The translations under genes and the position numbers were made by a program. A stretch of 64,000 bases of DNA from a virus. How positions within the stretch are numbered: the stretch's first letter is position 1; the number at the start of each line of letters is the position of its first letter. The stretch is from the IMG/VR virus record IMGVR_UViG_3300044620_001904, positions 31,262-95,261 of that record; one strand, given 5' to 3'. Below, piece by piece: positions 13,488-44,214 of the stretch. A model generated the notes under the pieces. It was not told the DNA's origin. It made no database searches and saw only the letters and a list, made by a program, of their open reading frames with translations.

Positions 13488-13877
13488 GGGCCTATAATTG
13501 GAATCGACTGGCGTAGTTAATTATAAAGAGCGTACCGAGGCTGAGTTAACCTTGTAAAACTGACTTATTAATTAGACGGAAACGTTATCAACAAACTTTC
13601 AGCAGTAGGACTTGTTCGTACTTCTGAAAAAGTAGCAGTAGCCTAAGGCAAACCTACAACGGGTCGGCGTACATTAAACCTTGGAACAGAAGTGCTTGCA
13701 AAGGGTGTGGTTTCTATCCAAAAAGAAACAAGTGGAGGATTAGTTCTCAGTAAACCGAACCACTTTAAAAATAAGGGAATTGTGAAGTTTCGGATTGGTT
13801 AGAAAACCAATGTCCTATGTACGTAGAACTTTATACTTAGTATGAGCAGGACGGGAGTTCGAACCTCCCTAGGTCCA
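13488..13877 (+). ncRNA. ssrA: Transfer-messenger RNA (tmRNA, ssrA) encoded by the phage
   Basis: The ends form a tRNA-like domain: GGGCCTA at 13488 pairs with TAGGTCC (13870-13876); the T-arm is GGGAG-TTCGAAC-CTCCC; AATCGAC follows the acceptor as in other tmRNAs. The resume codon is GGA at 13578, directly after TTAGAC, the equivalent of the E. coli TAGTC determinant. The tag frame 13578-13646 encodes 22 residues (begins GNVINKL, ends VAVA, stop TAA), much longer than the usual 8-10-residue Bacteroidota tag ending in LAA. The discriminator A is followed by CA, so the full CCA must be added by the host. Trans-translation would release stalled ribosomes and tag the peptide. Confidence 0.93.
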
Positions 13878-13883
13878 CATTAA

Positions 13884-14689: not shown

Positions 14690-15677
14690 TATGGCTTACG
14701 CTGAGATTACACGTTTTATTGGAAATCTTTTATAGGATTATGGGTTCCCTATGTATCCACCATCTTTTGAATGGTAATTTCCAGTGACGGTTAGTTAGAC
14801 TAACCACTCCTTGAGGTACTAGTTACTCTTTTATTACTCAACTCTCCCCGAGAATGCCTCCCCAGTTAATCCTTGCGAGATTAGAGGTATTTCATAAAAA
14901 TCTCATCAAACTTGCGGTTATCAGAGGCAATGAACGGCTCATTACTATGTAGTCACCTTTCACTAATACCTGACGGACACTTTTGCTCTTTTTTAAAAGT
15001 TGAATTTTAAATCGAAGTTACGTGTTGTGGATTATAGAAGTAGTGGTCCGCCACCGACTTAGTAATCTTTTGAATTACCAAATATCAAACTACTCCTTGA
15101 AGTGTCCCCACCTCCATATTTTAAGATTACTTCAAAAAGAGACTTTGGTAAGTCATCTTTAAGGATAATAGCGACACCACTCGTTCTTTATCATACCTTT
15201 GAGGTTGCCCCTTCGGTTTTAAGTATCCTTTCATATTGGAACTCGTAATAATATTATCGGATAATAACATTTTTTACAAAGTTCCTACGGGTTATTCTTA
15301 TTGGTGTTCCCACCTCAACAGGACGACCCACATCGCCCCATCAATAATCCATTTCCCTACGAAGTTATCCTCGGTACTACAGGTTTATTGATATCCCGCT
15401 TGTGTACTCGAGTTCAAAACAACCGAAGTTATTTCAAACCGCAAACCCCTTACACTTGAGGATTCACTTTATCCCACTTTCGTGGTTTATTTAAGGACTA
15501 TACACAGCCCATTATCGTTTACAAGTTATCATCATCCCGAAGGACTACTTTCACTTGATGGATAATCCATTATTTTAAAGAACATAATTCGAAACATGCT
15601 ACCGACTCGCGTAAATGGTGAGTTTCCTCACACTATTTAGTCGGGTTCACACCAGACCTCCTTTTCGAATTGTTTGA

Positions 15678-23650: not shown

Positions 23651-23676
23651 ATTACAAAGATAGTAAAAAAATGATG

Positions 23677-23762
23677 CGGAGAACAGAGGAATCGAACCTC
23701 ACACAAAATTTGTGCGTCATTCTTAGCAGGAAGGCCCCATCGCCATCAGGGATTATTCTCCG
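23677..23762 (-). tRNA. tRNA-Ser (GCT)
   Basis: Acceptor CGGAGAA/TTCTCCG; anticodon loop CTGCTAA; long variable arm CACAAA..TTTGTG; T-arm with TTCGATT. Class II as expected for serine. Confidence 0.9.
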
Positions 23763-23768
23763 TATTGT

Positions 23769-23840
23769 TGTTTAGGAGGGAATCGAACCCCCACCTTAGC
23801 GTCCGTTGCGCTAAATTCTAATCCATTAAACTACTAAACA
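23769..23840 (-). tRNA. tRNA-Arg (ACG), unusual loop
   Basis: Acceptor TGTTTAG/CTAAACA, T-arm GGGGG-TTCGATT-CCCTC and anticodon stem TAGCG/CGCTA are good, but the loop is CAACGGA: position 33 is A instead of the near-universal U. Arg(ACG) is the best reading. Confidence 0.75.
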
Positions 23841-24130
23841 ATAAATCCAACAATTTGGTTTTTTTCACTTTTATATTGTGTTAAAAGCATAAGTTCGGTA
23901 ACTTCATCTTTAGTGCAGTATCCTTGAACATCTTCTTGCCAACTTGTCCAAACTTCAAAAGTGGTTTCACCATCACCATAAAGACCAGTTCCTCCTCCAA
24001 CGACAGATATTGCATGGCCATTTGGAAATTCCATAACCGCATGAATGGCTCCCACATTAAAATAGTTACGATGCGGTTTGAAAACCAAATCATCAAATGT
24101 TTTTACTTTATATTTTTCAAAAAAATCCAT
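23834..24130 (-). CDS. Hypothetical phage protein, 98 aa
   Basis: A soluble protein starting MDFFEKYKVKTFDDLVFKPH, with a Gly-rich turn SVVGGGTGLYGDG and a TFEVWTSWQEDV strand. It resembles small proteins found in several T4-like phages, but I know no function. It is the first gene inside the tRNA cluster and its 3' end touches the Arg tRNA. No special promoter is seen. Confidence 0.65.
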   Translation of the reverse strand: MDFFEKYKVKTFDDLVFKPHRNYFNVGAIHAVMEFPNGHAISVVGGGTGLYGDGETTFEVWTSWQEDVQGYCTKDEVTELMLLTQYKSEKNQIVGFIV

Positions 24131-24164
24131 AATATATTTTTTTAAATTGTTGGTATAATTTTGT

Positions 24165-24246
24165 GAGTAAGGTAGGATTCGAACCTACACGAATTTCTCC
24201 ACCGGCTTCTAAGGACGGCGCGTTCTACCAGTTTCGCCACTTACTC
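24165..24246 (-). tRNA. tRNA-Leu (TAG)
   Basis: Acceptor GAGTAAG/CTTACTC, D-arm with AAACTGGTAGA, anticodon loop with TAG, long variable arm, T-loop TTCGAAT. Confidence 0.88.
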
Positions 24247-24255
24247 AATTTTTGG

Positions 24256-24329
24256 GTGTTGTATGGGATTTGAGCCCATGACCTTCTGAACCACAATCAG
24301 ACGTTCTCACCAACTGAACTAACAACACC
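24256..24329 (-). tRNA. tRNA-His (GTG)
   Basis: Acceptor GTGTTGT/ACAACAC, anticodon arm TCTGA-TTGTGGT-TCAGA, T-loop TTCAAAT-like (CTCAAAT). Confidence 0.9.
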
Positions 24330-24338
24330 ATATTTGGC

Positions 24339-24422
24339 GGAAAAGAGAGGTGTCGATCCCCACACCACGAAGGTGCCACTAGTTTTCAAGACTAGGTTTA
24401 GCGCCGGCTAAATTTCTCTTCC
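24339..24422 (-). tRNA. tRNA-Ser (TGA)
   Basis: Acceptor GGAAGAG with matching 3' strand, anticodon arm CTAGT-CTTGAAA-ACTAG, long variable arm GGCACC..GGTG. Confidence 0.9.
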
Positions 24423-24430
24423 ATTTGTTG

Positions 24431-24504
24431 TGGAACAGAAAAGAATCGAACTTTTATTGCTCGCTCTTCATGCGAGTGCCTTGACCAACTAGGCTACTGT
24501 TCCA
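24431..24504 (-). tRNA. tRNA-Phe (GAA)
   Basis: Acceptor TGGAACA/TGTTCCA, anticodon arm CTCGC-ATGAAGA-GCGAG, T-loop TTCGATT. Confidence 0.9.
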
Positions 24505-24513
24505 TATATTTTA

Positions 24514-24544
24514 CAAATATACAAAAAATATTTCGTACCGCCAA
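24514..24544 (-). promoter_or_regulatory. Internal tRNA-cluster promoter
   Basis: On the minus strand TTG (24542-24544), a 20-nt spacer and TATATTTG (24514-24521), just upstream of the Phe tRNA. It would drive the promoter-distal tRNAs and the genes to 23834. Confidence 0.55.
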
Positions 24545-24608
24545 CAAGAATCGAACTTGTAATTAAACCTTATGAGAGTTCCGTGATAAACCGTTTCACT
24601 ATGGCGGC
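24537..24608 (-). tRNA. tRNA-Met or tRNA-Ile2 (CAT)
   Basis: Acceptor GCCGCCA with 3' TGGCGGT, anticodon arm GAACT-CTCATAA-GGTTT, normal short variable loop. The initiator GGG/CCC stem is absent, so elongator Met or lysidine-modified Ile. Confidence 0.88.
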
Positions 24609-24614
24609 ATTTAG

Positions 24615-24687
24615 AGCACCATGAGAATTTTGAAATCTCGACTTCTAGTTTGGAAGACTAGCGCTCTGCCTCTGAGCTAATGATGCT
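24615..24687 (-). tRNA. tRNA-Gly (TCC)
   Basis: Acceptor AGCATCA with 3' TGGTGCT, anticodon arm CTAGT-CTTCCAA-ACTAG, T-arm GAGAT-TTCAAAA-TTCTC. Confidence 0.88.
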
Positions 24688-24694
24688 TTTATGT

Positions 24695-24777
24695 TACCGG
24701 GGTAGGGTTCGAACCTACACAGGGATTTCTCCCAACAGATCCAAAATCTGCTCGCTTGCCAATTTGCATACCCGGCA
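24695..24777 (-). tRNA. tRNA-Gln (TTG) with class-II variable arm
   Basis: Acceptor TGCCGGG with 3' CCCGGTA, D-stem TGC/GCG, anticodon arm GCAGA-TTTTGGA-TCTGT, T-arm GTAGG/CCTAC. Between anticodon stem and T-arm lie 16 nt with a GGGA-GAAA-TCCC hairpin, a long variable arm never expected for glutamine. The D-arm also looks like those of Leu/Ser tRNAs. Confidence 0.85.
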
Positions 24778-24779
24778 AT

Positions 24780-24922
24780 TTTGATGAGTCACGGACTTGT
24801 GTACCGTATGTCCCCCTTTAAATTATTCACTAACCCAGGGTGTGGGGAAACTCATCATAATAACCCCCTTGATCGGATTAACGGACCGACTGCCATATCG
24901 GAAGTGGGGGTTAGACTCCGTA
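24780..24922 (-). ncRNA. Structured non-tRNA block in the tRNA cluster (1)
   Basis: No tRNA or ORF fits. The minus-strand RNA has AACCCCC/GGGGGTT closing 44 nt, then GATGAGT/ACTCATC closing a second domain with an ACGG..CCGT hairpin. It resembles the stable non-tRNA RNAs of the T4 tRNA cluster in position only. Confidence 0.55.
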
Positions 24923-25007
24923 GTCCTGGTCGGATTCGAACCGACACGGGCTTCTCAGCCCAACAGATTTTAAGTCTGTCGCGTCCTACCAATTTCGCCA
25001 CAGGACC
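24923..25007 (-). tRNA. tRNA-Leu (TAA)
   Basis: Acceptor GGTCCTG with 3' CAGGACT, D-arm AAATTGGTAGGA, anticodon arm CAGA-CTTAAAA-TCTG, variable arm GGGCTGAGAAGCCC. Confidence 0.9.
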
Positions 25008-25210
25008 ATATAAAACACCCTAATTTATCCAACTTACAGGTGTTGCGGTTGTCCTCATTTCTGAGTTAGGAATAGTCATTTGTCCTTACGAGGTCGAGTT
25101 GACTTGCTCTGAAGTTATCCCCCTCCACTCCAATGTAGGTTCCCATACGGCGATCAAACCGTTTTTCATCGTATTGGGCGTACTATCCGTTGTCGTGTTT
25201 CGGAACGTGT
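25008..25210 (-). ncRNA. Structured non-tRNA block in the tRNA cluster (2)
   Basis: About 200 nt with no ORF or tRNA. The minus-strand RNA contains CTCA-GAAA-TGAG (GNRA), ACGG..CCGT and a closing AACACC/GGTGTT helix at its 3' part. Candidate processed small RNA. Confidence 0.5.
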
Positions 25211-25315
25211 AGTCAGGACAGGATTCGAACCTGTATGGGTTTTTGAGACATCACTTCCTCTCGGTGTTCCACCCAGTTTATTTCAACTTGCGTCTACCAA
25301 TTCCGCCACCTGACT
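25211..25315 (-). tRNA. Aberrant tRNA-like element 1 (Leu-type ends, no anticodon arm)
   Basis: Acceptor AGTCAGG/CCTGACT, Leu-type D-arm GCG-GAATTGGTAGA-CGC and T-arm ACAGG-TTCGAAT-CCTGT are perfect. In place of the anticodon arm is AGTT-GAAATA-AACT with no readable anticodon, and the variable region is some 40 nt (GGGT..ACCC with an inner GAGA..TCTC). Total 105 nt. Either a decayed tRNA-Leu or a tRNA mimic. Confidence 0.6.
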
Positions 25316-25320
25316 ATTCG

Positions 25321-25464
25321 TTATTTCATTTTTTGTACTTCTTCAATTAACTCAATAAACATTGATTTTGTTATATGTTCCTGCTTTACCCACATATAAA
25401 TTACCCCCATTCTTTCGTGGTAATCTTTTTTAACTTGTAATTTTTCAATCAAATCTTTTATCAT
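25321..25464 (-). CDS. Small hypothetical protein between tRNAs
   Basis: Start 25464 gives MIKDLIEKLQVKKDYHERMG, 47 residues, helical and basic. An earlier in-frame start would lie inside the neighbouring tRNA-like element, so it is rejected. No function is known. Confidence 0.55.
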   Translation of the reverse strand: MIKDLIEKLQVKKDYHERMGVIYMWVKQEHITKSMFIELIEEVQKMK

Positions 25465-25484
25465 AACCTCGTATTTTATTTTGT

Positions 25485-25597
25485 AGTCAGGACAGGATTC
25501 GAACCTGTAATGATATGCCCCGCACATATCTGGATGGTCTAGAATTAGTTGTATAATTCGGAATTCACCACAATGTTACCAATTACACCACCTGACT
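25485..25597 (-). tRNA. Aberrant tRNA-like element 2 (extended anticodon arm)
   Basis: It shares acceptor AGTCAGG/CCTGACT and T-arm with elements 1 and 3. D-arm GTGT-AATTGGTA-ACAT. The anticodon arm is replaced by a long arm, GTGGT-GAATT..AATTC-TAG-ACCAT, with a 15-nt loop, and the variable arm is GATATG-TGCGGGG-CATATC. 113 nt. No isotype can be assigned. Confidence 0.6.
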
Positions 25598-25601
25598 ATT
25601 T

Positions 25602-25687
25602 GAGGATGAGAAGTCCTCTGTGTTGTAAGTTTTAGAACCAAAGGAACCGCACTCATCCATCCTTTCTCAAGGGAACAACAAATTAGT
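25602..25687 (-). ncRNA. Structured spacer RNA in the tRNA cluster (3)
   Basis: The minus-strand RNA has GTTGT/ACAAC closing about 57 nt and then an anticodon-arm-like hairpin GAGGA-CTTCTCA-TCCTC. No ORF and no complete cloverleaf. Confidence 0.4.
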
Positions 25688-25760
25688 AGTCAGGATTGGA
25701 CTCGAACCTGTTTTTCCTCCTTCCCTTTGTCGGAAGTTGTGCTCCTTACACCACCTGACT
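25688..25760 (-). tRNA. Aberrant tRNA-like element 3
   Basis: Acceptor AGTCAGG/CCTGACT as in elements 1 and 2; D-arm GTG-TAAGGAG-CAC; anticodon stem CTTCC/GGAAG with loop GACAAAG lacking U33 (the triplet would be CAA). The T-stem ACAGG/CCAAT has two mismatches. Probably not a working tRNA. Confidence 0.6.
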
Positions 25761-25976
25761 ATTCACCCCACCTTGAGATTTGAGGTGAGTAGTTATTTCG
25801 GTTTTCTATTTCTTAAAAACCTGCGGGGCGTCCCCCATTAAAACAGCCAACACTACTGGGAGAGATTGTGTCAGTCCCTTTATCCCACGATGTCCCACTC
25901 TAGCCGTAGACATTCTGCTAGTCCATTGTTAAATGAGTCTTGGACAAAAGACTGCTGAGTATCTCTTACTCATTGT
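25761..25976 (-). ncRNA. Structured non-tRNA block in the tRNA cluster (4)
   Basis: 216 nt without ORF or tRNA. Minus-strand hairpins: GAGTA..TACTC, GTCTT-TTGTCC-AAGAC, CATT-TAAC-AATG, GGGG-GACG-CCCC, GGTTTT..AAAACC and CACC..GGTG. The density of good hairpins suggests a stable RNA. Confidence 0.5.
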
Positions 25977-26063
25977 GGGTAGGGAGGGACTCGAACCCCC
26001 GATGTTGTGTCTAAAGACCTTTGATTTACAGTCAAAGCCGTTCGCCGCTACGGTAACCTACCC
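25977..26063 (-). tRNA. tRNA-Tyr (GTA)
   Basis: Acceptor GGGTAGG/CCTACCC, anticodon arm TTTGA-CTGTAAA-TCAAA, long variable arm, T-loop TTCGAGT. Class II as expected for bacterial Tyr. Confidence 0.9.
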
Positions 26064-26170
26064 GACGATAAAATAGGAAAATAGAAGATGGGCGCGTGGA
26101 CATCTATTTTTATGATTAGCATTACTATAAACACCTCCACCAAAATGGTATTCCCTAATCAACCTATTGT
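26064..26170 (-). ncRNA. Structured spacer RNA in the tRNA cluster (5)
   Basis: 107 nt. Minus-strand hairpins: GATTAG..CTAATC enclosing ACCA-TTT-TGGT, and GATG..CATC flanked by AATAG/CTATT. No ORF. Confidence 0.4.
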
Positions 26171-26243
26171 ACCCCCTCTAAGAATCGAACTTAGGACATA
26201 TTGCTTGTAAAACAATCACTCTTAACCACTGAGTTAAGGGGGT
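26171..26243 (-). tRNA. tRNA-Val (TAC)
   Basis: Acceptor ACCCCCT/AGGGGGT, anticodon arm ATTGT-TTTACAA-GCAAT, T-loop TTCGATT. Confidence 0.9.
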
Positions 26244-26250
26244 GTATTGC

Positions 26251-26322
26251 GTACCTCCAAGGATTCGAACCCTGAACAAACGGGTTGGAACCGTTTATGA
26301 TAAACCATTTCACCAGAGATAC
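26251..26322 (-). tRNA. tRNA-Trp (CCA)
   Basis: Acceptor GTATCTC/GAGGTAC, anticodon arm AACGG-TTCCAAC-CCGTT, T-loop TTCGAAT. Confidence 0.9.
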
Positions 26323-26329
26323 GTATTGA

Positions 26330-26402
26330 GAGCAGTGAGGGATTCAAACCCCCGTGTTTCTCCTTTGCAGGGAGTTGCCTAATCGCTCGAGCCAACTGCT
26401 CT
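26330..26402 (-). tRNA. tRNA-Cys (GCA)
   Basis: Acceptor GAGCAGT/ACTGCTC, anticodon arm ACTCC-CTGCAAA-GGAGA, T-loop TTTGAAT. Confidence 0.87.
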
Positions 26403-26407
26403 TATGT

Positions 26408-26481
26408 CTTCAGGGGCGGGCTCGAACCGCCGACCTCTTGGATATCAGCCAAGGATTCTAAACCAACTGAACTACCTGAAG
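26408..26481 (-). tRNA. tRNA-Ile (GAT)
   Basis: Acceptor CTTCAGG/CCTGAAG, anticodon arm CTTGG-CTGATAT-CCAAG, T-loop TTCGAGC. Confidence 0.9.
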
Positions 26482-26488
26482 ATTATGT

Positions 26489-26561
26489 AGTGAGGATGGG
26501 ACTTGAACCCATGACTGCATGTGTATAAGACATGTATTCTAACCAACTGAATTACCTCACT
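26489..26561 (-). tRNA. tRNA-Ile (TAT)
   Basis: Acceptor AGTGAGG/CCTCACT, anticodon arm CATGT-CTTATAC-ACATG. A UAU anticodon reads AUA directly, which is uncommon in bacteria but suits an AT-rich phage. Confidence 0.87.
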
Positions 26562-26572
26562 ATAATTAAGTG

Positions 26573-26644
26573 ATTCCGGTGGGATTCAAACCCACGTTTA
26601 CCATTTTAAAAGAATGGTGCCTACAATCACTCGGCCACGAAATC
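26573..26644 (-). tRNA. tRNA-Lys (TTT)
   Basis: Acceptor GATTTCG/CGGAATC, anticodon arm CCATT-CTTTTAA-AATGG, T-loop TTTGAAT. Confidence 0.88.
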
Positions 26645-26680
26645 ATTTTTTATACCAACAATGTCAAAGAACCTTGTTCT

Positions 26681-26736
26681 AATCTTTCACAAAGGTAAAT
26701 CAAATTTTTTAATCCAACAAATCTATGTGAAAGATT
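26681..26736. promoter_or_regulatory. tRNA promoter enclosed by a 10-bp inverted repeat
   Basis: AATCTTTCAC (26681-26690) and GTGAAAGATT (26727-26736) flank a minus-strand promoter (TACCTTTG at 26690-26697, TTG at 26718-26720). It could be an operator for the tRNA operon downstream, or a plus-strand terminator, since six T follow. Confidence 0.45.
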
Positions 26737-26743
26737 TTTTTGA

Positions 26744-26824
26744 GGAAAGGGTGGGAATCGAACCCACGTTGAGAATTAACTCGCAGATTAACAGTCTGCT
26801 GCCTGGCCTCTAGGCTACCAATCC
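26744..26824 (-). tRNA. tRNA-Asn (GTT) with class-II variable arm
   Basis: Anticodon arm GCAGA-CTGTTAA-TCTGC, D-stem GCC/GGC and T-arm GTGGG/CCCAC are good. The acceptor GGATTGG with 3' CCTTTCC has two U-U mismatches. The variable region is 15 nt with GAG..CTC, long-arm type, not expected for Asn. Confidence 0.83.
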
Positions 26825-26840
26825 ATTTTATATTGTATTA

Positions 26841-27389
26841 CTAAGTGTTTTTTTTCAAAAAATTGTCCCTAAACATATCAACAATTCCAATAATTTCATT
26901 TTTGAATTTTGAATGTATATATAGATGATGTGTTGGACACAAAGGAATCAAATTTTCCGGTGAGTTATTTTTTTTATTACAATCATAATGGTGGATTGCC
27001 ACTATTTTAGATTCACCACATACCACGCATCGTTTTTGGTGATGTTCAAAACCTATTCTACGGTATCCATTTCTTTCTCTATTTTCAACAGAACCGACCC
27101 AATTAGGGTTATTAGGACCACTTCTGAAAAAACTATTTGAGCAAGAATAAGAACAAGTTGTTTTTTCATGTTTATGATTTGTAATAGTAACGAACACATT
27201 ACCACAAATTGGACATTTTTTTTCCAAGTAATCGTATTTAGTTTTTTTCTTTTTCAAATGTGAAATATCTACACTATGAAGTTCTATAAACTCAAAAAAT
27301 TTTTTTCTAGTTTTACCATTATCATAACCATAAATTGATTTTATTGCGTCAGTAATAGTTTGAGAATTTTTTATTATTTCTGTTTCCAT
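26841..27389 (-). CDS. HNH homing endonuclease inside the tRNA cluster
   Basis: 182 residues. C-terminal HNH core: RCVVCGESKIVAIHHYD, then NSPENLIPLCPTHHLYIH. An extra CPICG..CSYSC zinc pair and the NWVGSVENRERNGYRR motif precede it. Such free-standing HNH genes commonly invade phage tRNA clusters. An ATATTTAT box (27394-27401) sits 4 nt before the ATG. Confidence 0.9.
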   Translation of the reverse strand: METEIIKNSQTITDAIKSIYGYDNGKTRKKFFEFIELHSVDISHLKKKKTKYDYLEKKCPICGNVFVTITNHKHEKTTCSYSCSNSFFRSGPNNPNWVGSVENRERNGYRRIGFEHHQKRCVVCGESKIVAIHHYDCNKKNNSPENLIPLCPTHHLYIHSKFKNEIIGIVDMFRDNFLKKNT

Positions 27390-27452
27390 ACATATAAATA
27401 TGTTAGAAATCGTAAAAAACTAATTTGGTCAAACTTTTTCAATACGACAAGT

Positions 27453-27524
27453 AGAGTAGACAGGACTCGAACCTGCACGCACTTGCTCCCAAAGCAAGGG
27501 ACCTTCCAATTGGTCAACTACTCT
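27453..27524 (-). tRNA. tRNA-Pro (TGG)
   Basis: Acceptor AGAGTAG/CTACTCT, anticodon arm CTTGC-TTTGGGA-GCAAG, T-loop TTCGAGT. Confidence 0.9.
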
Positions 27525-27587
27525 ATATGAAAAACATAATTTTGTAATTACAACACTTAATAACCAATATTTCAAAGAACAAAAAAA

Positions 27588-27620
27588 AACCCCGAACTTT
27601 TTACGGTTCAGGGTTTTTAT
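27588..27620. terminator. Hairpin terminator
   Basis: AAACCCCGAAC..GTTCAGGGTTT stem with flanking A/T runs on both strands, between a tiny gene and tRNA-Pro. Confidence 0.75.
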
Positions 27621-27644
27621 ATGATAATTTTAACTATATCAACT

Positions 27645-27743
27645 TTTAACTACTGAACCAATGAATGTACGAAACATCCCAGGATACCAACAATTACCTT
27701 GTGGTTTCGAACTAATGACGTTATGTAAATTTATTGTTTTCAT
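27645..27743 (-). CDS. Tiny hypothetical protein, 32 aa
   Basis: MKTINLHNVISSKPQGNCW and so on, with a TACTTTTG promoter box at 27764-27771 and a terminator right after it, so a one-gene unit. Function unknown. Confidence 0.45.
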
Positions 27744-27803
27744 AGTTTGTTATATAAGTATTACAAAAGTAGTAAAAATATCAATACAAGTCAAATATTT
27801 TTT

Positions 27804-27950
27804 TCACCACCTAAAATAAATTGTTGCTATTCCTATCGCAAATGTTAAGACTCTACGTTTTTCAGGATGATAAGGAGTTTTTTGATATGAAATACCAATA
27901 TCAAACCACCATTCGCCATCAAAATTGTTCCAAACAAATTCTGTTTTCAT
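27804..27950 (-). CDS. Small hypothetical protein, 48 aa
   Basis: Trp/Tyr-rich (begins MKTEFVWNNFDGEWWFDIG) with a short hydrophobic end. No motif recognised; it is in a run of tiny minus-strand genes. Confidence 0.55.
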   Translation of the reverse strand: MKTEFVWNNFDGEWWFDIGISYQKTPYHPEKRRVLTFAIGIATIYFRW

Positions 27951-27966
27951 GTCTTATCGTTTAATT

Positions 27967-28146
27967 TTAAAACATTAAAGTTCTAACCAAGTATCCAATT
28001 AATTCATTAAGTAATGCAAAAAAACCAACTATGGATCCAATTCCAAATACCGACATCAATATAAATTGTGTCATAATTGCAAAAGTTGATGGTTCCCTTT
28101 TGAATTGGTTTTTCTTGTAAAATTTTGAAAAAAAAGATGTTTGCAT
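27967..28146 (-). CDS. Small single-span membrane protein, 59 aa
   Basis: A basic N-terminus (FSKFYKKNQFKREP) then one membrane helix (TQFILMSVFGIGSIVGFFALL). Unknown family; an inner-membrane location is likely. Confidence 0.6.
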   Translation of the reverse strand: MQTSFFSKFYKKNQFKREPSTFAIMTQFILMSVFGIGSIVGFFALLNELIGYLVRTLMF

Positions 28147-28158
28147 ATGGTTTTATTT

Positions 28159-28371
28159 TTAGATTTCGCTCAAATATGATTTCAGGTTAGCAAGTTCAAT
28201 TTTTAATCTTACGATTTCATCGTTTTGCAATTTTATATCTTCCAGTCTTTCCTTTAAAACCTCAAAAGAATAATCGATAATTTGTTGTTCAATTTCGGTC
28301 AAATCTTCTTTTTTTACAAGAATTTTCTCCAAAATAAACTCACAATATTTGTCTTTTTGAGATTTAAACAT
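28159..28371 (-). CDS. Small coiled-coil protein, 70 aa
   Basis: Glu/Lys/Leu-rich helix with heptad-like spacing (VLKERLEDIKLQNDEIVRL). TATCTTTG at 28388-28395 could be its promoter, 16 nt from the ATG. Function unknown. Confidence 0.6.
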   Translation of the reverse strand: MFKSQKDKYCEFILEKILVKKEDLTEIEQQIIDYSFEVLKERLEDIKLQNDEIVRLKIELANLKSYLSEI

Positions 28372-28424
28372 TTTGTTTTTTGTTGGGCAAAGATATAACT
28401 TTTATCTATCTCTGCCAAATTTTT

Positions 28425-28658
28425 TTAAAAAATCGTGTGATCCCCAAAGTTATCGTCCCAAGGACAAGGGATGGACTTTCTATCATCATCACGAGTTGGT
28501 TGGATGATATCAGAAATTTCAGATAATATCTGTAAAGCATCCGTTTGAGCATTATCAGATTGGAAGATAGTTTCAGCATAAGGATATTTTTTGAAATAAT
28601 CATCAAGAACATTGATAACTTCAGATTTTTTTTCGGGTGTCCAATTTATTTTATACAT
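28425..28658 (-). CDS. Hypothetical protein, 77 aa
   Basis: A soluble acidic protein (MYKINWTPEKKSEVINVLDD) with a CPWDDNFGD end. This frame is preferred to an overlapping one because of its codon use and its spacing to neighbours. No family known. Confidence 0.55.
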   Translation of the reverse strand: MYKINWTPEKKSEVINVLDDYFKKYPYAETIFQSDNAQTDALQILSEISDIIQPTRDDDRKSIPCPWDDNFGDHTIF

Positions 28659-28673
28659 ATTCTATTTTTGTGA

Positions 28674-28758
28674 GCCAAGGGCCGGATTCGAACCGGCGTG
28701 TGAGTAAACTCATCCTCATTACAAGTGAGGTGCAATCGACCATCTATGCGACCTAGGC
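28674..28758 (-). tRNA. tRNA-Thr (TGT) with class-II variable arm
   Basis: D-arm GCA..TGC with a large loop, anticodon arm CCTCA-CTTGTAA-TGAGG, 16-nt variable arm with TGAG-TTTA-CTCA, T-arm GCCGG/CCGGC. The acceptor GCCTAGG/CCTTGGC has one mismatch. The body resembles a serine tRNA carrying a threonine anticodon. Confidence 0.85.
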
Positions 28759-28769
28759 AAATTGTTGGT

Positions 28770-28841
28770 GACCCTGGCACGATTCGAACGTGCGACTGAT
28801 TGCTTAGAAGGCAATTACTCTATCCTCTGAGTTACAGGGCC
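28770..28841 (-). tRNA. tRNA-Arg (TCT)
   Basis: Acceptor GGCCCTG/CAGGGTC, anticodon arm ATTGC-CTTCTAA-GCAAT, T-loop TTCGAAT. Confidence 0.9.
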
Positions 28842-28847
28842 TTATAA

Positions 28848-29024
28848 TTATATTTTCTTCACTTCATATCTATGACCACTGTCAGAATTTATCTCCATTA
28901 ATTTTCTTGTGTTTTCTGCGTCTTCAAAAGTTTCAAACTCTAATACTTCCTCATGAGTGTCCAATATAATTACCGGCATCTCTACATTTCTGTCATTTTT
29001 TACAAATTTTACAATTACATACAT
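28848..29024 (-). CDS. Small hypothetical protein, 58 aa
   Basis: MYVIVKFVKNDRNVEMPVI and so on: a compact alpha/beta sequence (VEMPVIILDTHEEVLEF, then FEDAENTRKLMEIN) typical of small phage proteins between tRNAs. Function unknown. Confidence 0.6.
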   Translation of the reverse strand: MYVIVKFVKNDRNVEMPVIILDTHEEVLEFETFEDAENTRKLMEINSDSGHRYEVKKI

Positions 29025-29045
29025 AATAATTAGTTTTTTTTTGGC

Positions 29046-29116
29046 GGTCTATAAGGGAATCGAACCCTTACCATATCATAGACAGTGATATATCCTTGCC
29101 GTTAGACGAATAGACC
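29046..29116 (-). tRNA. tRNA-Asp (GTC)
   Basis: Acceptor GGTCTAT/ATAGACC, anticodon arm TATCA-CTGTCTA-TGATA, T-loop TTCGATT. Confidence 0.9.
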
Positions 29117-29128
29117 AATTTTGTTTTA

Positions 29129-29159
29129 CAAAGGTAGTATAAACTTTTCAATTATACAA
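29129..29159 (-). promoter_or_regulatory. tRNA promoter
   Basis: Minus-strand TTG (29157-29159), 20-nt spacer and TACCTTTG (29129-29136), just upstream of tRNA-Asp. Confidence 0.6.
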
Positions 29160-29177
29160 CACATTTATTTTTTTTGT

Positions 29178-29252
29178 GGAGAAGATGGGAATCGAACCCA
29201 CCACAAAAACATTGCAAGTGTTTCTCGCCAAAGCCTTGGTACATGCTCCCCC
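29178..29252 (-). tRNA. tRNA-Ala (TGC) with atypical D-arm
   Basis: Acceptor GGGGGAG/CTTCTCC (with G-U pairs), anticodon arm AAACA-CTTGCAA-TGTTT and T-arm GTGGG/CCCAT are fine. The D region is CCAA-GGCT-TTGG, with no normal GG-containing D-loop. Confidence 0.8.
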
Positions 29253-29265
29253 AAATTATTTTGTA

Positions 29266-29350
29266 GTGCCGATGGGATTCGAACCCACGATTATCCTTTC
29301 GGATTCCAGATTGAAAGTCTGGTAGCCTAAACCACTAGCCGACGGCACCA
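29266..29350 (-). tRNA. tRNA-Glu (TTC) with class-II variable arm
   Basis: Acceptor GGTGCCG with 3' CGGCACT, anticodon arm CCAGA-CTTTCAA-TCTGG, T-arm GTGGG/CCCAT. The variable region is 17 nt with ATCC-GAAA-GGAT, a long arm not expected for Glu. Confidence 0.85.
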
Positions 29351-30276: not shown

Positions 30277-30789
30277 ATGATTATTAACATGGAAAGAGTT
30301 TTAGTTTTAAATTCTGATTATAGTCCTTTGAACGTAACGACTGTCATTCGTGGTTTTAACTTAGTTAATAAAGGAAAGGCCGAGATATTAAAATCGGGCG
30401 AAAAACCGATAAGTGCTGGTTCATTATCATTTGCTCGCCCTTTGATAATAAGACTATTGGTTTATGTTAAATACAGGGTTAAAAACTTAAAAGTTAATAG
30501 GGCTAGAATTTATAAACGTGATGGTCATAAATGTGTATATTGTGGGGCGAATAAAAATCTTACAATAGACCACGTTTTACCAAAATCTCGTGGTGGAACA
30601 AATAGATGGACTAATTTGGTTACATGCTGCGGTACTTGTAATAGAAAAAAAGGTGATAGAACTCCATATGAAGCAAATATGACTTTAAGTGTAAAACCTT
30701 ATGAACCATCATTGTTTTCTGATGTATTTCATAATCACATAAGTGATCTGTGGGATGAATTCAAACAAACGATGGGGTTGAATTATTGA
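30277..30789 (+). CDS. HNH endonuclease
   Basis: 170 residues of a widespread HNH family: N-terminal VLVLNSDYSPLNVTTVIRG, then CVYCGANKNLTIDHVLPKSRGG, NLVTCCGTCNRKKGDRTP. Two CxxC pairs bind a structural zinc; H and N of the core are present. Two Met (30277, 30289) are equally likely starts. A TATATTTG box lies upstream. Genes of this family are common in Bacteroidota and their phages; DNA nicking or defence/counter-defence roles are possible. Confidence 0.9.
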   Translation: MIINMERVLVLNSDYSPLNVTTVIRGFNLVNKGKAEILKSGEKPISAGSLSFARPLIIRLLVYVKYRVKNLKVNRARIYKRDGHKCVYCGANKNLTIDHVLPKSRGGTNRWTNLVTCCGTCNRKKGDRTPYEANMTLSVKPYEPSLFSDVFHNHISDLWDEFKQTMGLNY

Positions 30790-42140: not shown

Positions 42141-43181
42141 TTATTTATTAAATCTTTTAAGTGCGTTTTCGGTTATTTTAACGTAGTTTGAATTTTTGAA
42201 GGTTTCTAAGGTAGATGAATTTGTGTATGACATTGCGGATGATAAATAATCGTTAAAATTTGCAACCCACTGTGATACCGTGTATTCAACTTTATTAAAT
42301 TTAACAATTCCTTCTGAGGTTTTCAATACCTGCCGACCCCATTTTTTTTGAACCTGTTTGGTTGACATACCTCTAAATGATTTATAAAGATTTTTTCTCA
42401 AAAATGGAATGTTGTTCCAAATATATTCTGATATATTCTGCGATAACCTAAAAAATTTGAATAGATAATTTTTACCGCACGATTCCAAGGACTTGTTTAA
42501 AATTCCGCCTAACATTACATAATCAGCACCTAATGCCAAGGCTTTAATAATATCATCATAATTTTTGAATCCTCCATCTGCAACTATTTTGGTGGTATAT
42601 CCTTCGTCTTTTTTATGTTGATAACATTCATTAATCAATGACGCCATCGGATAATGAACTCCTGTGTTTGCCGATGTTAAACATCCTGATCCCCCACCAA
42701 TTCCTACTCTAATATAATCAACCCCTAATTTGGCGTAAGCTTTAAATGCTGCCGGGTTTGCAATATTTCCAATCATAATTGTGTGACCTAAATCCTTTCT
42801 TTGAAATGACACAAATCTTTCAACCAAATCATATAATCTTCGCATATGACCGTTCGCGATATCAATTAAGATATTTGGTTGATATTTCGGATAAATTCCA
42901 ATTGAATAATCTTCTAAAAAACTTTCAAACTCATCTAGTGACAATGATGTAAATATTTTTCCTTTTTTTGAATTTACTTTTACACCTCTTGGTAGACAAA
43001 CAATCGTCGCATTGTCTTCAAATATCTTATAATTGTCTTTATCAACTACGGTATCCATTGGTGATACCATAATGGGTAGATAATGTTCCTCGGTAAAAAT
43101 ATCTACTTCTTTTCTTGAGGAAATTTCTGTTAAAGGTTCAGGCACAAGGACTATATCCTTGAAATCAAACTTGTTTGTCAT
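42141..43181 (-). CDS. guaB/guaC-like: IMP dehydrogenase / GMP reductase family enzyme
   Basis: A 346-residue TIM barrel of the family: N-terminal FDFKDIVLVPEP, the PIMVSPMDTVVD strand, IANGHM, then the flavin-independent catalytic loop GGGSGCLTSANTGVHYP (Cys about 180) and VADGGFKNYDDIIKALALGADYVMLG. There is no CBS domain. The TGVHYP ending is nearer GMP reductase than IMPDH, but the reaction (IMP/XMP/GMP balance) cannot be settled by eye. Probably adjusts purine supply for phage DNA. Confidence 0.88.
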   Translation of the reverse strand: MTNKFDFKDIVLVPEPLTEISSRKEVDIFTEEHYLPIMVSPMDTVVDKDNYKIFEDNATIVCLPRGVKVNSKKGKIFTSLSLDEFESFLEDYSIGIYPKYQPNILIDIANGHMRRLYDLVERFVSFQRKDLGHTIMIGNIANPAAFKAYAKLGVDYIRVGIGGGSGCLTSANTGVHYPMASLINECYQHKKDEGYTTKIVADGGFKNYDDIIKALALGADYVMLGGILNKSLESCGKNYLFKFFRLSQNISEYIWNNIPFLRKNLYKSFRGMSTKQVQKKWGRQVLKTSEGIVKFNKVEYTVSQWVANFNDYLSSAMSYTNSSTLETFKNSNYVKITENALKRFNK

Positions 43182-43182
43182 T

Positions 43183-43635
43183 TTAAGATTTTTTTGAAAG
43201 GGTTTCTAACTCTTCAAAAGATAATAAACCTCTTCCAAATTGTCCAATTCTTTGACTATATCTTATTTTAACTCTTTCTGAAATTGGTAATGATTGTCCA
43301 TCATCATCAATTCTAACAAATTTTATTTCTGTTTTTGTTACAACTTCCTGTTCTCCTGTATAAACATTATGTTTTCTAACTTCAATATTTAAAGTAACAG
43401 AAGTTCTTCCGAAATCTTTTACTTCTCCATAAATCTTTATAAGATTTCCAACTTTTATTGGTCTTTTGAAAATCAATTCATTGATTTTAACTGTCACCAT
43501 TCTTGGCGTATCGCAAATTTGACAAGCGTAAGCGGCGGCGGCTTCATCTATCCATCCCATCATTTTTCCACCAAATAAATTACCGTGAACTCCAATATCA
43601 GGTGACATACATATTTTTGTTGTAATCAATTCCAT
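43183..43635 (-). CDS. yciA-like: YciA-type acyl-CoA thioesterase (hotdog fold)
   Basis: 150 residues. The hotdog core helix motif GNLFGGKMMGWIDEAAAAYA is diagnostic, followed by VTVKINELIFKRPIKVGN and KTEIKFVRIDDDG. Such enzymes hydrolyse acyl-CoA. This is unusual in a phage genome and may affect host lipid synthesis during infection. It lies 1 nt upstream of the IMPDH-family gene in the same direction, so probably co-transcribed. Confidence 0.87.
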   Translation of the reverse strand: MELITTKICMSPDIGVHGNLFGGKMMGWIDEAAAAYACQICDTPRMVTVKINELIFKRPIKVGNLIKIYGEVKDFGRTSVTLNIEVRKHNVYTGEQEVVTKTEIKFVRIDDDGQSLPISERVKIRYSQRIGQFGRGLLSFEELETLSKKS

Positions 43636-43724: not shown

Positions 43725-43957
43725 CACTAATAATTACTAAATTTGTAAGCGTCTTCCAACTGTAGCAGGTAATCCTTGTGCACCGGTAAGGTGTAACACC
43801 CTTCAATTTGTAAGCTTCTTCCAACAAAATATGTGATGTATCCGACGAATCCTATGGTGTAACACCCTTCAATTTGTAAGCTTCTTCCAACCATTTGGTC
43901 AACCATATCCCGAAGCTTGTTGGTGTAACACCCTTCAATTTGTAAGCTTCTTCCAAC
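43725..43957 (-). CRISPR. Orphan mini-CRISPR array, Cas13b-like repeat
   Basis: Three identical 36-bp repeats (43790-43825, 43856-43891, 43922-43957) and a fourth, degenerate one (43725-43760, last 20 bp nearly identical) are separated by unrelated spacers of 29, 30 and 30 bp (43761-43789, 43826-43855, 43892-43921). The degenerate copy marks the trailer, so transcription is on the minus strand; there the repeat starts GTTGGAAG and ends GGGTGTTACACC. 36/30-bp geometry, GTTGG start and GAAGGGT near the 3' end resemble Cas13b (type VI-B) repeats of Flavobacteriia. Spacers are richer in G+C than the phage. No cas gene lies in the window. Confidence 0.82.
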
Positions 43958-44214
43958 CAATCCTTTATAATTAACTGAATATCATCATAATTAAGGTAAA
44001 AATACCGTTCCAATTTTGACCAAATATCTTTATGACTTACCCGAACCCTCTCATTTTTCTTATCGTATTCCATAAATATATGATTTTCGGAATCAGCATA
44101 AAATAATGAATTTGGATATTCTGAACTAATTTTTGGTGTTAAATTTCCAAATGATTTTGTTAAATATAATTTAACGACTCTAACTAATTTTGGTCTATCG
44201 ATTATTATGTTCAT
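43852..44214 (-). CDS. Hypothetical protein whose C-terminus runs into the CRISPR repeats
   Basis: 120 residues; the first about 85 (MNIIIDRPKLVRVVKLYLTK onward) form a soluble alpha/beta domain of a phage family unknown to me. The last third is encoded by CRISPR repeat, spacer and repeat, giving WLEEAYKLKGVTP twice and a stop inside the next spacer. The degenerate terminal repeat downstream would read LEDAYKFSNY and a stop, which may be the original gene end before the array arose or inserted. Overlaps the upstream gene by 4 nt. Confidence 0.65.
   Translation of the reverse strand: MNIIIDRPKLVRVVKLYLTKSFGNLTPKISSEYPNSLFYADSENHIFMEYDKKNERVRVSHKDIWSKLERYFYLNYDDIQLIIKDWLEEAYKLKGVTPTSFGIWLTKWLEEAYKLKGVTP

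Follow-up and report, generated by a model that had tools for sequence, protein, structure and literature searches.

A CRISPR-like array in the coding tail of a phage gene, probably formed by host-type Cas1-Cas2 integration

A short series of direct repeats and unrelated spacers in a phage genome raises the question of whether the phage carries a working CRISPR array, intended for the Cas proteins of its host, or whether such a structure can arise from the phage's own sequence. The locus considered here lies in a stretch of 64,000 nucleotides (the window), which makes up bases 31262-95261 of a virus record of 95,261 bases. An earlier, sequence-only reading had described it as a mini-CRISPR array with Cas13b-like (type VI-B) repeats and no cas genes.

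Anatomy of the array and of the gene that carries it

As that reading held, three exact 36-bp repeats (GTTGGAAGAAGCTTACAAATTGAAGGGTGTTACACC) and one degenerate copy lie on the minus strand (Table 1). The distances between repeat starts (66, 66 and 65) set the length of the spacers. Four matches to the repeat were observed in the window against none in its dinucleotide-preserving shuffles, and neither a second array of this kind nor a further copy of the repeat was present in the whole 95,261-base record. The locus thus has the near-identical direct repeats of 21-48 nt and the unrelated spacers of uniform length by which CRISPR arrays in general are recognised. The spacers also have a higher G+C content than the phage, again as first described (43, 33 and 48%, compared with 31% for the window).

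The sequence-only reading had overlooked that repeat 1 is the protein-coding 3' end of an open reading frame on the minus strand. Translation from position 44214 gives MNIIIDRP...KDWLEEAYKLKGVTP-TSFGIWLTK-WLEEAYKLKGVTP-stop, and the degenerate last repeat, read in the frame of the gene, gives LEDAYKFSNY-stop, which is likely to be the old end of the gene. A degenerate terminal repeat of the same architecture is found in the related phage sequences L004, L011, L014, L082 and L084. The gene product is predicted to fold as a small alpha/beta protein (pLDDT 91), and a fold search with it matched only uncharacterised proteins of uncultured Caudovirales, with no function. The array is not explained by tandem protein repeats, a reading that was rejected on account of its unrelated spacers and its mixture of 65-nt and 66-nt units.

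Across the phage gene copies, synonymous sites in the repeat are as variable as those in the gene body, and this comparison found no nucleotide-level constraint on the repeat. Codons 61-70 show few synonymous changes (observed/expected approximately 0.5) in copies with and without arrays; this stretch was rejected as a leader element, since array-less copies are equally constrained. Other features of the window, including its structured RNAs and the unusual metabolic genes beside the array, are also listed in Table 1. An SmpB-like protein, recognised by eye only, is encoded just downstream of the array in the L011 contig.

Table 1. Positions of the array, its gene and other features in the window.
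Feature	Positions	Strand	Remarks
Gene carrying the array	43852..44214	(-)	From translation: orphan phage family with about 98 conserved residues, followed in frame by repeat 1, spacer 1 and repeat 2; stop in spacer 2
Flank directly upstream of repeat 1	43958..43971	(-)	Coding, ATTATAAAGGATTG; presumed leader side of a leader-repeat junction (putative role)
Repeat 1	43922..43957	(-)	36 nt; codes WLEEAYKLKGVTP at the gene 3' end
Spacer 1	43892..43921	(-)	30 nt; gene-proximal, presumed newest
Repeat 2	43856..43891	(-)	36 nt; same sequence as repeat 1
Spacer 2	43826..43855	(-)	30 nt; the extended ORF stops here
Repeat 3	43790..43825	(-)	36 nt; same sequence as repeat 1
Spacer 3	43761..43789	(-)	29 nt; gene-distal, presumed oldest
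Degenerate terminal repeat	43725..43760	(-)	Retains 22 nt at its start, with 2 mismatches; remainder lost at the 3' end
Codons 61-70 of the gene	~44034-44005	(-)	
IMP dehydrogenase/GMP reductase-like domain protein and 4HBT thioesterase	42141-43635	(-)	Adjoin the array; unusual phage metabolic genes
GOLLD RNA	14698-15097	(-)	Rfam RF02032; 330 bits, E 5.9e-94
Phage tmRNA	13488-13880	(+)	RF00023
24 clustered tRNA genes	23676-29349	(-)	Most amino acids
ORF with HNH domain	30277-30786	(+)	170 aa

Recurrence, growth and spacers in related phages

Relatives were gathered from IMG/VR by means of the protein encoded by the gene, and more were added with two DNA patterns. This gave 50 distinct copies of the family in related phage contigs, forming 18 clusters at 90% nucleotide identity. 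At least one array unit of 65 or 66 nt was found in 25 of the 50 gene copies and two or more units in 8 of the 50, with a repeat length of 36 nt (35 in L027). The units are restricted to this family: interspersed repeats of 65/66 nt were absent outside it in 0.6 Mb of these phages, where the other repeat matches had periods of 54-84 and came from coding repeats. One phage record of 261 kb (L096, L097, L098 and L101) holds 12 scattered copies of the family, most of them lacking arrays. Some of these copies stop right after the equivalent of the repeat (e.g., WLEETYKLSGVTPDYA-stop) and are candidate empty sites.

Homologous phages carry arrays at the same site with spacers that differ from those of the window, and differences of this kind at a single site are seen upstream of a gp32-like gene in L032, L033, L082 and L083. 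The sequence-only reading had named conservation of the spacers as coding sequence in homologous phages as one observation that would speak against an array. The spacers of the window are not shared in this way; for other, older copies the objection applies in part, as one single-unit spacer is common to the divergent phages L011 and L028 (copies L011 5648 and L028 660).

New units lie at the end next to the gene. L012 and L015 have one spacer, while L011 and L013, which are 97% identical to them in the gene, have that spacer (with one mismatch) and a new gene-proximal one. A second pair, L033 gene 1 and L084, shows a similar pattern with a shared array end and flank, with the caveat that the gene bodies are only 74% identical and recombination between paralogues is therefore involved. 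A pair alone cannot separate the gain of a unit from its loss, and variants within the repeats help here. The repeats of L004 array 1 read GGC, GGC and then GAC, and those of L027 have AAA in repeats 1-3 and AGA in repeats 4-5; in both, the variant of the gene tail occurs only in the gene-proximal repeats. Polarised growth at the leader end (L012/L015 compared with L011, and the variants of L004 and L027) and a degenerate terminal repeat, both typical of CRISPR arrays in general, are thus found in this family. The terminal repeats of several lineages lack their 3' part from about the same place, so the unit originally duplicated may be shorter than 36 nt.

Every one of the 35 unique spacers is 29 or 30 nt long, and their G+C content is 0.39 compared with 0.32 for random 30-mers of the phages (z = 4.3). 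None was found to be copied from elsewhere in 0.8 Mb of these phages. Protospacer searches of annotated phages, of plasmids (13 spacers) and of IMG/VR (3 exact cores) returned no convincing match, only weak ones at the level of chance, from a limited sampling; spacers 1 and 3 of the window had zero matches in the phage, plasmid and IMG/VR searches. Open frames in the target orientation had been taken as a sign that the spacers target mRNA, but they are no evidence of it, as all three sense frames of the spacers are about equally open. Across the family, first spacers lack stops more often than their shuffles (17/22 against 11.7, P = 0.016), with 17, 16 and 16 of the 22 stop-free in the three sense frames. 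Since the spacers are alike open in all sense frames, neither mRNA targeting nor the coding of a protein tail is favoured.

The Cas13b question and the likely host

The assignment to Cas13b could not be sustained, given the lack of a hairpin, the coding-like drift of the repeat and the failure to find a matching host repeat. Type VI-B repeats have a central hairpin and GTTG/CAAC ends. The repeat of the window folds at -1.1 kcal/mol, worse than 198 of 200 shuffles, compared with approximately -11 for a genuine VI-B repeat, and 14 related phage repeats yielded no consensus structure. A pattern scan of approximately 85,000 species genomes recovered one real array, the VI-B array of Bergeyella cardium (L067), whose repeat is clearly different and forms a hairpin; the pattern fits the repeat of the window but was picked after that repeat had been seen, and thus provides a weak link only. 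VI-B arrays of Flavobacteriia such as that of Bergeyella cardium share with the phage arrays repeats of about 36 nt, spacers of 30 nt, the GTTGG start and a late GAAGGGT/GGAGGGT, whereas the phage repeats have no central hairpin and drift with their gene, and no cas13b was seen in the phage. Among 395 Bacteroidota genomes, none had a repeat that differed from the phage consensus at 3 or fewer positions, although the host may be unsampled.

The claim that the phage array has no cas genes was supported: no Cas1 was found in 21 phage records and no Cas2 in five, a search that took in 261 kb from one phage. No Cas effector was seen in the phage; for the 261-kb phage, PADLOC was applied to ORFs from roughly 300 aa upwards, and the negative holds among the best 25 of 81 families. 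The small ORF of the window that PADLOC scored as Cas9 (E 2.3e-12) was rejected, as only its HNH domain matches.

Promoters of the Bacteroidota type are in excess in the window (28 matches against 7.6 expected), which suggests that the host is likely a member of the Bacteroidota, placed at phylum level only. In this phylum, new spacers of 30 bp enter the array at its leader end in the type II-C system of R. anatipestifer (PMC6008519), and in F. columnare the adaptation genes of a II-C system act in trans on behalf of a type VI-B array (PMC8092290). By analogy with these two systems, an integrase of the host acting in trans is what we can best infer for a phage with a Bacteroidota host.

Proposed integration, possible function and related systems

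Fixed-length, gene-adjacent units that copy the tail of the gene are the signature of Cas1-Cas2 integration. The boundary in array-bearing copies has the common motif ATTATNAAGGWNTG/GTTGGA (the slash marks the boundary), and its upstream flank is coding. G occupies position +5 in all 24 array-bearing copies and in 7 of the 15 array-less ones, a comparison that ignores the kinship of the copies. For the Cas1-Cas2 of type II-A, recognition spans no more than 10 bp on the leader side and 5 bp on the repeat side of the leader-repeat junction; the off-target sites of this enzyme look like that junction, and the repeat length, or far cut, is set by a ruler (PMC6895254). With such short recognition and a ruler, coding sequence could serve as a repeat while it drifts.

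We propose that the array is an outgrowth of the 3' end of the phage gene. A Cas1-Cas2-type integrase would read TG/GTTGGA near the gene end as a leader-repeat junction and insert 29-30 nt of foreign DNA, after which gap filling would duplicate the 35-36 nt gene tail. Repeated insertion would displace older units from the gene, leaving the outermost, degenerate repeat with the old gene end. Most likely, the Bacteroidota host would supply this integrase in trans from its own adaptation machinery. To this reading, a CRISPR-like array born in a phage gene by host-type Cas1-Cas2 integration and mainly a by-product or decoy, we assign a probability of roughly 0.6; what we infer in it is which enzyme acts, that this enzyme belongs to the host, and where the spacers come from.

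Because the repeats evolve as ordinary coding sequence without a conserved RNA fold, we see the arrays less as working guide-RNA arrays than mainly as a by-product of integration, or as a decoy that takes up the spacers inserted by the host. This is the weakest step of the argument. A stronger version, in which the phage uses the gene family as an anti-adaptation device whose many copies, such as the 12 of the 261-kb phage, offer decoy junctions and divert the insertions of host Cas1-Cas2 from the host CRISPR array into the phage genome, is a tentative suggestion that we would not expect to hold.

It is possible that the arrays yield working guides, but a by-product or decoy is likelier. In such a case the mRNA of the gene would carry the array, from which host Cas proteins would make guide RNAs against competing phages. 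The array, lying downstream of the gene in the sense direction, would be transcribed, and its anatomy, the lack of cas genes, the foreign G+C of the spacers and their turnover at one site match known virus-borne arrays (PMC6858448, PMC7162821). Known mini-arrays, however, carry the repeat of their host (PMC11656645), and no such host repeat was found here; the lack of a shared fold, synonymous sites that vary like the gene body and the zero protospacers found also make guide function unlikely. RNA anti-CRISPRs (Racrs), in which phage-borne mimics of host crRNA repeats poison Cas proteins (PMC10651486), are hardly credible as an explanation: both the sequence and the structure of Racrs are like those of host repeats, neither a host match nor a conserved fold was found here, and the spacers and the growth of the array would be unexplained.

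The insertions could instead be kept because the protein gains a different C-terminal tail with each new spacer. The translated spacer is always the gene-proximal one, many copies have a single in-frame unit, and the retention of one old spacer between L011 and L028 and the scarcity of stops in first spacers would fit. That scarcity is equal in the three sense frames, which argues against selection on the frame; moreover, the frame is not preserved, given that 65-nt and 66-nt units both occur commonly, and some tails end within a few residues (L004 2008). Selection for tail diversity is thus very improbable. Marginally less so, though still improbable, is a phage-encoded and as yet unrecognised integrase, independent of host CRISPR. 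It would account for the restriction of the units to one gene family, and the phage records may be fragments, but the searched records, with 261 kb from one phage, hold no Cas1 or Cas2 homologue. We know of no non-Cas integrase that yields a fixed insert of 29-30 nt with a duplication of 35-36 nt.

We file the locus with virus-borne mini-arrays and off-target integration, which are among its closest counterparts, and not with VI-B. The arrays of SPV1 and SPV2 of Sulfolobales (PMC6858448) and those of phages and huge phages (PMC11656645, PMC7162821) likewise have few spacers and no cas genes; relatives carry different spacers at the same place, and adaptation by host machinery is presumed. Known mini-arrays are intergenic and lie behind a host-like leader with the repeat of the host, whereas in these phages coding sequence makes up the first repeat and the flank upstream of it, the repeat of each lineage follows its own gene, and no host-like repeat was found in approximately 85,000 species genomes and 395 Bacteroidota genomes. 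Off-target Cas1-Cas2 integration (PMC6895254) similarly places a spacer-size insert outside the CRISPR locus at a site resembling the leader-repeat junction, and a spacer-length insert with a repeat-length duplication at such a junction is found here; unlike those events, insertion has taken place repeatedly at a single gene family, across many lineages of phages, and has given arrays of several units that persist in nature. Solitary repeat units and RNA anti-CRISPRs share the presence of CRISPR-like repeats in phages (PMC10651486), while the present repeats are not solitary, lie in coding sequence and gave neither a match to a host repeat nor a conserved fold. The SRUFinder survey of such units masks ORFs (PMC10651486), so sites in coding sequence are passed over and may be common and overlooked.

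Should this reading be right, spacer insertions are recorded in a phage genome as well as in that of the host, and the roles of leader and first repeat can fall to a protein-coding gene. The locus would be a natural case of a CRISPR array starting from ordinary sequence, and would make it possible to test directly if phages exploit the spacer acquisition of their hosts or divert it.
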